Positions 2,546 through 5,396 of a DNA stretch of 64,000 nucleotides are shown in pieces. The translations under genes and the position numbers were made by a program. Numbering within the stretch: the stretch's first letter is position 1; each line of letters begins with the position of its first letter. The notes beneath the pieces were generated by a model. That model did no database searches. It was not told where the DNA came from and worked only from the letters and a program-made list of their open reading frames with translations. The stretch covers positions 1 to 64,000 of the forward strand of contig CALFNN010000039.1 in assembly GCA_937902925.1 (NCBI GenBank), read 5' to 3'. The DNA is from an uncultured Opitutaceae bacterium (lineage in GTDB: Bacteria; Verrucomicrobiota; Verrucomicrobiia; Opitutales; Opitutaceae).

Positions 2546-3700
2546 TTACCCCAGCAGCACCTGCCACTGGTTCTCGCGGGCGGAGCGGGCGGCCTTGAGG
2601 GCGCCGAGCGCGACGTAACGCTTGTAGTCCTGGCCGGCGAGTTTGACCTTGGGGGACTCGTAGCCGTCGTCGGTGAGACGCTTCTGGAGGACGGTATCGA
2701 TCCCTTTGATCTGCGAGCCGCCACCCGTGACGATGATGTTCTGGAGCAGCATGACGACGGAGTCCGACGAGGCGCGCTCGATCAACGACGTCAGCGCCGG
2801 ATAGAAACTGTCGATGAGCGCGTTGCAGGACCGGCCGATGACGTCGCCGAGCTCGATCGTGTGCCCCTTGCCGCCCATGATGACCTTTACCTCGAGCGGC
2901 TTGCGCGACGGGCCGGCGTAGGCGTGAGCCTCCTTGATTTCCCGGAGCGTGTGGCGCGAGAGGCCGTTGTTCGGGTAAGTGCGGTTGAGTTCGTCGTGCA
3001 TGAGCTCGTCGATCGCGTCGCCGGCAAACGGGATGCTGATCTGATCCTCCGCCGTGGGAAAATAGCCCTGCACGAGGCAGAGGTCGCTCGTGCCGCCGCC
3101 GATGTCGATGAAGAGCGAGTTGACGACCGGGTCGAGATAGCCGGACTGCCCGACACGGGCATCGTCGCGATAGCCGAGGGCCGCGAGAAACGGCTCGGGA
3201 ATCAGCAGGACGCGATCGAAGAGGCCGTGCGCCGCGCGGCGGATATCCTCGCGCGCCTGCTCGCCCGCGTTGGCGGGGACGCCGACCACGGCGCGAATCT
3301 CGGCGTGGCCGGCCGGGTCGGCGAGCGAGCGGATGTGCGCGATGAAGTCGCGCGCGGCGCCGGGATCGGCGACGACGCCGGCCGCGAGCGGCGCGACGAG
3401 GCGGACGTGGAGCATGTTGCGCAGGGCTTCCTCGCCGTAGAGAATGCGGGCGTTCCCCGCGATGATGCCGTCGACGATCCCATCCTTGACGTAGCCGACG
3501 AAGGACGGGACGACCTTGCTGACCGCGATATCGGAACCGCCGGCGGGGCCGGCGAGCAGGCAGGACTTGTTGGTGCCGAGATCGAAACCGACCAACACGG
3601 TTTTCGCCTTCGGGGACGGACTGCGGGGAGCCGGAGTCGCGGCGGGCGCGGGCAGGGACGAGGCGGGGGAAGCGGGCTTTTCGACGGTGGCGGTTGTCAT
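2546..3700 (-). CDS. MamK/MreB-like bacterial actin ATPase
   Basis: This 384-residue actin-fold ATPase has the three diagnostic nucleotide-binding blocks. They are phosphate-1 GFDLGTNKS (38-46), phosphate-2 FIDIGGGTSDLC (197-208) and the adenosine motif TGGGSQIKG (325-333). PEPF at 168-171 falls where the catalytic acidic residue of bacterial actins sits. The spacing of VVGVPA, IPEPFL, the second phosphate loop followed by a P..EDQ pattern, and LLQNI..TGGGS resembles MamK, the magnetosome filament actin, more than housekeeping MreB. No mreC or mreD is nearby. Residues 1-33 are a Pro/Ala/Ser-rich, probably disordered extension. The ATG at 3700 is chosen because upstream codons run antisense through the neighbouring gene. 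It is probably transcribed after the helical-protein gene at 3759-4235. Polymerisation is inferred from family membership; the cellular role is unknown. Confidence 0.85.
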   Translation of the reverse strand: MTTATVEKPASPASSLPAPAATPAPRSPSPKAKTVLVGFDLGTNKSCLLAGPAGGSDIAVSKVVPSFVGYVKDGIVDGIIAGNARILYGEEALRNMLHVRLVAPLAAGVVADPGAARDFIAHIRSLADPAGHAEIRAVVGVPANAGEQAREDIRRAAHGLFDRVLLIPEPFLAALGYRDDARVGQSGYLDPVVNSLFIDIGGGTSDLCLVQGYFPTAEDQISIPFAGDAIDELMHDELNRTYPNNGLSRHTLREIKEAHAYAGPSRKPLEVKVIMGGKGHTIELGDVIGRSCNALIDSFYPALTSLIERASSDSVVMLLQNIIVTGGGSQIKGIDTVLQKRLTDDGYESPKVKLAGQDYKRYVALGALKAARSARENQWQVLLG

Positions 3701-3758
3701 GACGGATGTTTTTGTGGTTGAGGAACGGACAGGGTGAAGCGGGAGGCCGGGGCGGATC

Positions 3759-4235
3759 TCAGGAGGCGCGCCGGCGGGTGCGATCGCCGCCAGCCGCCCG
3801 ATCCTGGGCGAGCATCTCATCGATAAAATCGGCGATGCCCGGCGTGGGGCCGGAACCGGCGGGGACCGCGGGCTCGGCGGCGGCGGCGGCCGGTGCCGGA
3901 GAAGCGACGGTGGCGCGGCGCGGTGCCGGCGGCCGCAAGCCGCCGAGATGCTCGGACAAGAGCGGCACGAGCAACTCGGCCAGCACCCGGGCGTTGAGCA
4001 CCCGTTCCTCCTCGGCGGCAAACAAGGCGCGCAACCGCGCGTCGGAGTCGGCGGCGGCTTCCGGGATCGCCCGAAGCGCGGCCAGGGCGCGGGAGAGCTC
4101 GGTGGATTGCACGCGCGCGGCCTCGAGGCTGTGACCGTTGGCGCGCAAGACGCACACGCGACGATAGACCAGCGCGACCTCGCCCCACGGCGAAGCATCA
4201 TCGAGTTTTTCGTGAACGGGAGAGGAAGCGCTCAA
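3759..4235 (-). CDS. hypothetical helical protein, probable partner of the actin-like gene
   Basis: I do not recognise a family for this 158-residue protein. Residues 15-95 are predicted to be mostly helical and charged (LEAARVQSTELSRALAALR, LFAAEEERVLNARVLAELL). Residues 100-130 are a Pro/Ala linker, and a short amphipathic segment GIADFIDEMLAQDRA sits near the C-terminus. There is no signal peptide or membrane segment, so it should be cytoplasmic. It lies 58 bases upstream of the MamK-like gene on the same strand, suggesting an operon and possibly a filament adaptor. The listed start is a TTG codon without a clear ribosome site, so the true start could be somewhat downstream. Confidence 0.6.
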   Translation of the reverse strand: MSASSPVHEKLDDASPWGEVALVYRRVCVLRANGHSLEAARVQSTELSRALAALRAIPEAAADSDARLRALFAAEEERVLNARVLAELLVPLLSEHLGGLRPPAPRRATVASPAPAAAAAEPAVPAGSGPTPGIADFIDEMLAQDRAAGGDRTRRRAS

Positions 4236-4302
4236 AGTGCGCCGGCGCTAGACCACGCGCACCCGTGTCAGTTCACGAAAATATTTTGCGGCTGCCGCCG
4301 GC

Positions 4303-4719
4303 TCACTTCAGCGCGTAATACAGCGCGATCACACCGAGCGCGAGCAAGCCGAGCGCGCCAAAAAAATAAAAAAAACAGCCTTTCTTGACGTCGCCCTTCA
4401 GCGCCTCCGGCGCCACGCGATATTCTTCCAGGATGGCGTCGGCCGCGGCGGCGACCTCGGGTGCCGCGGCTGCCGCCGGCGACTCAGGGGTCAAGGCGGG
4501 GACGGGCATTTCGGGCGCGACGGGTGGGGAAGGTGGAACCGCCGGGAGGAGCGGGCGAGCGACCGGAGCGAGGCTGACGGCGGGCGCCGCTGGCATCGAC
4601 GCGGGCGCAGGTTGCGTCAAAGGCTGGCCGGAAGCTTCCGCGATTTCGCGGTCGAGCCACGCGAGGTGCTCCTGCACAAGTGCTCGCTGGCGGCGGAGTT
4701 CCTGAAGGCGGTCTGGCAT
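4303..4719 (-). CDS. hypothetical tail-anchored membrane protein
   Basis: This 138-residue protein has a clear three-part plan. A short N-terminal coiled coil comes first (MPDRLQELRRQRALVQEHL, continuing to about residue 30). A long Pro/Ala/Val linker runs from about 34 to 93. The C-terminal part is a helix followed by one hydrophobic membrane span (FFYFFGALGLLALGVIALYY, about 116-136). Such a tail-anchored layout would display the coiled coil in the cytoplasm. The gene is in the same direction as the helical protein and the actin-like ATPase, 67 bases upstream of the former, so all three may form one unit. It also follows the rpmA terminator. Function is unknown; a membrane anchor for the filament is a speculation from context. 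Confidence 0.65.
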   Translation of the reverse strand: MPDRLQELRRQRALVQEHLAWLDREIAEASGQPLTQPAPASMPAAPAVSLAPVARPLLPAVPPSPPVAPEMPVPALTPESPAAAAAPEVAAAADAILEEYRVAPEALKGDVKKGCFFYFFGALGLLALGVIALYYALK

Positions 4720-4823: not shown

Positions 4824-5069
4824 TCAGGCCGTGATGACGGCGACGCGGCGGCGGGCCTTGTCGAACTTGACGGTGCCGTCCTTGAGCGCAAAGAGCGTCC
4901 AATCGCGGCCGGTGCCGACATTCTTGCCGGCGTGAAGCTTGGTGCCGCGCTGGCGGACGAGGATATTGCCCGCGAGGACGGACTCGCCGCCAAATTTTTT
5001 CACGCCGAGCCGCTGCGAATGGCTCTCGCGTCCGTTGCTGGATGTTCCCTGACCTTTTTTATGCGCCAT
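4824..5069 (-). CDS. rpmA: 50S ribosomal protein L27
   Basis: L27 is a large-subunit ribosomal protein whose N-terminus reaches the peptidyl-transferase centre. The 81-residue sequence begins [20 protein letters not shown] and continues with [20 protein letters not shown] and [11 protein letters not shown], all hallmarks of the family, at normal length. The N-terminus starts directly at the mature-type sequence, with no Firmicutes-style cleaved leader. It follows rplU with a 12-base gap, the standard L21-L27 pair, and an intrinsic terminator closes the unit. Confidence 0.98.
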
Positions 5070-5081
5070 GGCAGTGTCTCC

Positions 5082-5396
5082 TTAAGCTTTGATGGATTCG
5101 ATCTTGATGACGGAAAGCTCCTGACGGTGGCCGCGTTTGCGCTCCATGCCCTTGCGCTTCTTCTTCTTGAACACGATGACCTTGTCGCCGCGCTTGTTCT
5201 CCAGGATCTTGGCCGAGACGATTGCGCCGGACAGGGTCGGCGTGCCGACCTTGAAATTTTCACCCTCGCCGGCCGCCAACACGTCCTTGATCTCGACGGT
5301 CGAGCCCTTTTCCGTGCCCGGATAGCGGTTGACGATAAGAATGTCGCCCTCGGCAACAGTGAACTGCTGACCCTGGGTTTTGATGGTGGCTTTCAT
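5082..5396 (-). CDS. rplU: 50S ribosomal protein L21
   Basis: L21 binds 23S rRNA in the large subunit. The 104-residue protein starts [18 protein letters not shown] and contains the lysine-rich [17 protein letters not shown] segment and C-terminal IKIESIKA typical of the family. In-frame codons upstream give unrelated sequence, so the ATG at 5396 is used. It is the first gene of the rplU-rpmA operon. A symmetric hairpin lies in its leader from 5 to 27 bases before the ATG and no Shine-Dalgarno sequence is visible, so leader-based control is possible. Confidence 0.98.

Follow-up and report, generated by a model that had tools for sequence, protein, structure and literature searches.

The stretch analysed here, referred to as the window, comprises 64,000 nucleotides of contig CALFNN010000039.1 (C39 among the 105 contigs of a 6.0 Mb genome) from an uncultured Opitutaceae bacterium. 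Its minus strand carries the gene for an actin that model scores place in BeeR, a family described in 2025, and immediately upstream, with 58 bp between its stop codon and the beeR ATG, a gene for a small helical protein that we denote the partner. A first-pass annotation, made from the letters alone, had drawn these two open reading frames (ORFs) and a third, upstream one for a tail-anchored membrane protein, all on the minus strand, and had read them as one cassette; the three frames stand as drawn. The features of the actin and its partner, in window positions and with AlphaFold confidence given as the predicted local distance difference test (pLDDT), are as follows.

2546..3700, minus strand: beeR, BeeR-family actin of 384 amino acids with an ATG start (NCBIfam NF053558, 583.6 bits; PDB 8r2n_A, E 8e-197)
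3599..3700, minus strand: N-terminal extension of BeeR (residues 1–34), Pro/Ala rich, a hallmark of the family, placed by alignment
3759..4235, minus strand: partner gene, 158 amino acids, with a TTG start after an in-frame TAG; its homologues lie upstream of beeR elsewhere
3936..4190, minus strand: predicted N-terminal three-helix domain of the partner (residues 16–100; block pLDDT 84–98), recognizable across clades
3837..3935, minus strand: hypervariable Pro/Ala linker of the partner (residues 101–133; block pLDDT 58–61 over residues 101–130), modelled without secondary structure
3789..3836, minus strand: predicted acidic amphipathic C-terminal helix of the partner (residues 134–149, core IADFIDEML; block pLDDT 85–87), drawn from the model and from charge and amphipathicity over 67 partners

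The window actin is a BeeR by its match to the NCBIfam model, which lies above the cut-off of 530 bits, and among PDB entries it comes nearest to 8r2n, the Opitutus terrae actin that forms a three-stranded tubule. The extension before the actin core measures 34–35 residues, within the 30–50 that define BeeR. Against the NCBIfam MamK model it scores 206.3 bits, under the cut-off of 400, which rules out membership of MamK, and against the best MreB model 51.4 bits. The first-pass annotation had described intact nucleotide motifs, and the residues of the nucleotide site (G38, D40, G42, T43, D199, G201, G203 and G326–G328) are indeed invariant in 23 aligned sequences. It had also proposed an actin-family tree and expected the actin to fall outside MreB; in a tree of 23 BeeR, 13 MreB and one MamK fragment, a branch with 100/100 support parts MreB from BeeR and MamK, which confirms that expectation and excludes the window actin from MreB. 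The same tree splits BeeR from MamK with a support of only 64/85, MamK being a single long branch whose exact place is unsure. The earlier label 'MamK-like' is therefore right in the sense of relatedness, with BeeR as the closest model, and the earlier remark that the module could not be matched to a described one now applies to the partner only. An ordinary mreB with an adjoining mreC match lies on contig C103 of the same genome, away from the beeR locus, which, as had been noted, has no mreC. The accompanying remark that magnetosome genes are absent was checked in the genome with the MamK model only.

BeeR is encoded in 74 of the 372 genomes of a sample of the window's order, and we compared 74 loci at this level, the window and 73 fetched surrounding stretches. 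Used alone as a query, the window partner finds a match in 30 of these loci at E <1 and in 21 at E <0.001 (window included). A family profile made from the upstream ORFs recognizes the partner in 67/74 loci, always immediately upstream and on the same strand; the seven misses comprise three contig ends (L101, L103 and L107), one masked locus (L137) and three real absences (L081, L096 and L099). This profile was built partly from ORFs chosen by their position, and we therefore searched across groups. A profile of the 17 window-type partners (group A) finds 13/14 of the group B loci and 19/30 of group C, that of group B finds 7/17 of A and 29/30 of C with one stray match (E 0.0055), and that of group C finds 1/17 of A and 12/14 of B. 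Among 8465 ORFs the window-type profile has 54 matches, all at the upstream gene, including those in L084 and L086, which a distance rule had flagged because they overlap the BeeR frame. The linkage thus exceeds chance, since a profile from any one group picks out the upstream gene of other groups and almost nothing else. When the ORFs of the 74 loci are clustered, the partner splits into sets of 32, 17 and 14 loci among the clusters printed; besides BeeR, frames overlapping it and the partner, the widest printed cluster is a convergent gene in 34/74 loci. At the window, the convergent gene facing beeR (1427–2506) is presumably pheA-like.

Two further locus sets, which overlap with the first and with each other, point the same way. 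A family sample of 200 genomes holds BeeR in 68, at 71 loci, and the partner lies directly upstream in 63 of these by profile; closer inspection adds three diverged partners, in G710, in G733 and at the second G698 locus, giving 66/71. At the remaining loci no partner is detected next to beeR in G633, G731, G744 and G801, and in G804 it is on another contig. The third set consists of the best 80 of 157 named-record stretches encoding a BeeR relative, several of whose contigs are the same as contigs of the other sets; the partner is found in 64/80 by profile, and in L176 by eye and later, as the contig of G710, also by profile (65/80), while L164 lies at a contig edge. The linkage of helical protein to actin that the first-pass annotation had wished to see checked is consequently borne out in all three sets. 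Mapped onto a quickly built tree of 87 BeeRs, the label 'adjacent partner' needs 4 changes, compared with a mean of 14.1 after shuffling, and none of 500 shuffles was as low; an old pair with few losses is the simplest reading. The pair is also present in the organism in which the filament was solved: at locus L066, where BeeR is identical to 8r2n over 386/386 residues, the partner gene lies directly upstream.

Partner and beeR are mostly inherited as one unit. Searched genome by genome, the order sample has 68 genomes with both, 6 with BeeR only, 6 with the partner only and 292 with neither (Fisher p 8e-60, a value that ignores relatedness and comes from a partner profile that includes rows from these genomes). 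Most of the BeeR-only cases have a visible cause, namely a weak partner in G119 (L083), a cut in G523, a contig edge in G482 and masking in G397; in G395 and G633 the profile search detected no partner. Among the partner-only genomes, G310 holds remnants of both genes, G647 has an intact partner next to a BeeR without its middle, the BeeR of G610 is cut by a contig end and G445 is at a contig edge. G470 and G481, of one genus, keep the N-terminal domain of the partner and show no trace of BeeR, and the C-terminal motif is missing by eye; in G394, where BeeR and partner are on different contigs, the partner retains that motif. The family sample gives a similar table (both 62, BeeR only 6, partner only 5, neither 127), its partner-only genomes being G310, G647, G770, G813 (BeeR in pieces, contig end) and G735 (contig edge). 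The genes also decay together: remnants of both in G310, both in pieces in G775, and a joined remnant in G770, in which one open frame (L239:4425–4955) runs from the N-terminal part of the partner straight into the C-terminal part of BeeR and is probably the product of a deletion. Finally, in three genomes of the family sample with two BeeRs (G698, G718 and G747) each BeeR subtype has its own partner subtype at 6/6 loci, the match at G718-C190 covering just 32 residues. As a separate observation, genus g16 contains four genomes with a partial or broken BeeR (G310, G647, G762 and G775; loci L218, L219, L247 and L248), in two of which, G310 and G775, the partner is broken too.

The layout, the motif and the co-inheritance suggest a cytoskeletal unit of two genes, a BeeR filament and a dedicated adaptor encoded just upstream, a reading to which we give slightly better than even credence. 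The first-pass annotation had proposed a filament, an adaptor and a membrane anchor, and the first two of these come through the linkage analysis. Inheritance as a single transcription unit would, however, also produce linkage, joint decay and matched duplicates, and the partner might be tied to beeR by operon position only, controlling expression or doing an unrelated job with no binding to actin. The persistence of BeeR without the partner in several clades fits this account, which we nevertheless consider unlikely: the pair holds amid differing surroundings (10/74 order loci lie beside rplU–rpmA), and G394 retains both genes on separate contigs.

The adaptor reading draws further on the anatomy of the partner. 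An AlphaFold model from 57 aligned sequences has three confident helices (residues 16–32, 36–55 and 64–100), followed by a linker of low confidence and, near the C terminus, a fourth helix (134–149). The protein had been described as small and helical with a Pro/Ala tail; it is helical, and the Pro/Ala part is a linker, after which the conserved helix follows. Over 67 partners this helix is amphipathic (mean moment 1.76 vs 0.85 when shuffled; p ≤0.05 in 52/67) and acidic, with a mean net charge of −4.0 (range −7 to 0), and 1 to 38 residues come after the helix window. The middle of the protein is hypervariable between conserved ends: by a rough cut the linker measures 0–224 residues, and it is Pro/Ala rich in the window and acidic in several loci of family f83. 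Many window-type partners carry a basic tail past the helix. The window partner has no membrane segment by hydropathy (maximum 1.17), and 1/67 partners reaches 1.6 or more. A scan of 57 partners against Pfam and NCBIfam returned four Pfam and two NCBIfam families at E 0.01, each matched by one member only; a PDB profile search gave 0 matches at E 1, and a Foldseek search with the model, which did not extend to a viral structure library, gave nothing below E 4.1. FliT was tried as a fold relative and rejected (Z 7.3, root-mean-square deviation 8.0 over 79 residues, too weak for a helical bundle). As judged by these searches, the partner is a family new to Pfam, NCBIfam and PDB. No paper on a BeeR partner appeared among the top results of literature searches, which cover subscription papers thinly and exclude the supplement of the BeeR paper. 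The copies of the N-terminal domain in G470 and G481 (L221 and L222) stand alone, beside a gene that we take to be coaBC-like, and may show the domain's own job.

In mechanistic terms, the C-terminal helix would be a short linear motif for binding to BeeR, as subunits or as filaments. The flexible linker would tie the filament to a load held by the N-terminal domain, such as cargo, the nucleoid or a membrane protein. Alternatively, the linker could serve to tune filament turnover, in the manner of MamJ on MamK. The roles of the two ends might also be reversed, with the N-terminal domain binding BeeR and the C-terminal helix binding the membrane, a division protein or cargo. Many window-type partners have the basic tail behind the helix, and a model in which partner and BeeR were folded as one chain, across the stop codon between them, shows no confident docking of the helix, both of which would suit such a reversal. 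We find it doubtful, because the two genomes that have the N-terminal domain but no trace of BeeR lack the motif, and because helices that bind membranes do not usually carry a charge like the mean of −4.0 seen here. Under the adaptor reading the partner would be the first concrete handle on the function of an orphan actin. It adjoins the very gene whose filament was solved, and provides a candidate for binding that can be tested in O. terrae itself.

Several observations weigh against the adaptor reading. In the read-through chain (L154, 68 aligned rows) the helix has pLDDT values of 67 and 51 (blocks 141–150 and 151–160), below the 85–87 of the partner alone, which leaves docking on a single subunit unsupported. 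This model, for which rows with the partner only were trimmed to the N-terminal part, some of them imprecisely, was judged by its pLDDT, and a site spanning two filament subunits could not form in it; it speaks slightly against helix docking. BeeR lacks an adjacent partner in two clades, one of 10 named loci and one of 3, and also in L099 and L215. For 20 loci, 13 of them lacking and 7 having the partner next door, we extended the search to the complete set of contigs of the 19 genomes concerned: no partner is detectable in 12 genomes of the partner-less loci, the exception being G825, and the other 7 genomes hold one. G825 has two BeeRs, with the partner at one (L200) and none at the other (L193). 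It is possible that a diverged partner falls below detection in the partner-less genomes. The partner-less clade of 10 has no replacement neighbour among the clusters printed, where those in at least 5 loci coincide by position with the BeeR frame or with its antisense strand and one in 4 loci sits at the end of BeeR. An intact partner, with its motif, lies beside a BeeR missing its middle in G647, and another intact partner lies beside a BeeR split in two frames in G762. The argument from motif loss concerns two genomes of one genus, some of the broken genes are possibly assembly errors, the Fisher tests ignore relatedness and the tallies come from profiles for which some of the counted loci had served as input.

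The third gene of the proposed cassette has a different history. The gene order on the minus strand is rplU, rpmA, the tail-anchored protein, the partner and BeeR, and the upstream features are the following.

4303..4719, minus strand: tail-anchored coiled-coil membrane protein, 138 amino acids with an ATG start; by hydropathy and distribution a neighbour outside the module
4824..5069, minus strand: an ORF that we take to be rpmA (ribosomal protein L27), an upstream landmark
5082..5396, minus strand: an ORF that we take to be rplU (ribosomal protein L21), an upstream landmark

The tail-anchored protein has a hydrophobic C-terminal segment (Kyte–Doolittle maximum 2.33) and belongs to a real family, of which 9 sequences were aligned; the window protein has no Pfam or NCBIfam match over the cut-off. 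Were it the membrane anchor of a three-gene cassette with filament and adaptor, as first proposed, it should be conserved together with the other two. Its gene does lie within 2.5 kb upstream of beeR, on the same strand, in 16/71 family loci, and the protein is slightly commoner in genomes with BeeR (137/200 family genomes, 56/68 with BeeR and 81/132 without; Fisher p 0.002, ignoring relatedness). The protein occurs, however, in 81 family genomes devoid of BeeR, and in 40 BeeR genomes it is encoded elsewhere. Away from beeR its gene directly follows rplU–rpmA on the same strand at 16/16 places read (12 genomes without BeeR and 4 with BeeR elsewhere, of 121 such genomes), and the order sample, with 10/74 BeeR loci beside rplU–rpmA, has it recognized in 9/74. 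The distribution has already largely refuted the three-gene cassette, which is now very improbable, and together with the rplU–rpmA linkage it leads us to reject the tail-anchored protein as a part of the module. The gene belongs to the rplU–rpmA neighbourhood and is a bystander to BeeR, and it is the membrane-anchor half of the earlier proposal that falls. The places of this family that were read include loci L228–L233 and L258–L273.

The proposed two-gene unit can be compared with described actin systems. The window BeeR resembles that of O. terrae in family (by model score), N-terminal extension and nucleotide site, and has the same residue at 6/12 contact positions. The O. terrae protein (PDB 8r2n; Bergeron et al. 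2025) forms a three-stranded tubular filament, its function is stated to be unknown, and the counterpart of the extension is reported to be disordered (PMC11929497). The main text of that account treats the actin alone, with neighbouring genes, operon and partner absent from it (PMC11929497). After BeeR, the nearest named family to the window actin is MamK. Passages of the MamK literature place mamJ and mg-1g50 immediately upstream of mamK genes (PMC10653835), describe MamJ as having conserved ends around a hypervariable middle (PMC10653835, PMC11628618) and report that magnetosomes are tethered through it and that it modulates the turnover of the filament (PMC10653835, PMC5059902, PMC11628618). 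As far as those passages go, the BeeR partner shares with MamJ the position of an adaptor gene immediately upstream of the actin gene (67/74 loci) and the hypervariable middle between conserved ends. MamJ has a C-terminal membrane helix, whereas the BeeR partner has no membrane-spanning C terminus, and so the resemblance would be one of working rather than of membership. The partner, known here from its genes, is likened to MamJ by layout and anatomy alone, and its binding to actin is putative. With MreB, MreC and MreD the likeness is the actin fold; BeeR lies outside the MreB clade, and the genome has its own mreB and mreC match elsewhere.

A more speculative extension of the adaptor reading is that in Opitutales, and in Verrucomicrobiota related to them, the pair positions an unrecognized compartment or cargo in the way of MamK and MamJ: the helix would grip the tubule, the three-helix domain would carry the cargo, and the paralogous pairs of three genomes would serve separate cargos. 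We rate this as rather improbable. A DNA-segregation module like ParM and ParR, with the partner as the DNA-binding adaptor, would be consistent with the basic tail of some partners and with a weak match of the window BeeR to a family of partition actins from phages (PHROG 691, E 3.5e-8). The partner, on the other hand, matches no Pfam, NCBIfam or PDB family, DNA-binding ones included, in searches that did not extend to centromere-like repeats, and we hold such a module to be highly unlikely.

The filament lattice may vary within BeeR. The window BeeR is a candidate for forming a three-stranded, ATP-dependent tubule. Of 12 positions given as cross-strand contacts in the O. terrae filament, it has the same residue at 6 (E149, E153, R157, R242, N246 and L385) and another at I277 (M), L284 (I), T307 (S) and Q310 (E); at the two printed positions left, 252 and 380, the O. 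terrae sequence itself has H and Q, which differ from the residues named. The 20 window-type loci largely keep R242 (17/20), N246 (17/20) and L385 (18/20). Another 40 loci, most of them from family f83, fall outside the two Opitutaceae-type groups and include L095, L100 and L112; here position 242 is E in 34/40, position 246 is E or D in 40/40 and position 385 is absent in 35/40. In most of these 40 loci, cross-strand residues are replaced by acidic ones and the C-terminal leucine is missing. The suggestion that the three-stranded lattice is a feature of the family (PMC11929497) rests partly on residues that the 40 loci do not share, and their lattice may differ.

BeeR is patchy in its phylum, which bears on a statement of the paper that described it. 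In the phylum sample, matches at the BeeR level (>490 bits, the next best match being 91 bits) occur in 18/387 genomes, each of which belongs to the order of the window. Outside that sample, the best 80 named records come from Opitutaceae, Pelagicoccus and various uncultured Verrucomicrobiota, some of them labelled Verrucomicrobiales or Limisphaerales. Five BeeR contigs (L138, L188, L194, L197 and L202) belong to bins labelled Gammaproteobacteria, Akkermansia, Proteobacteria or Klebsiella; their BeeRs cluster with those of bins labelled Verrucomicrobiota, and these five bins are likely to be mislabelled or contaminated.

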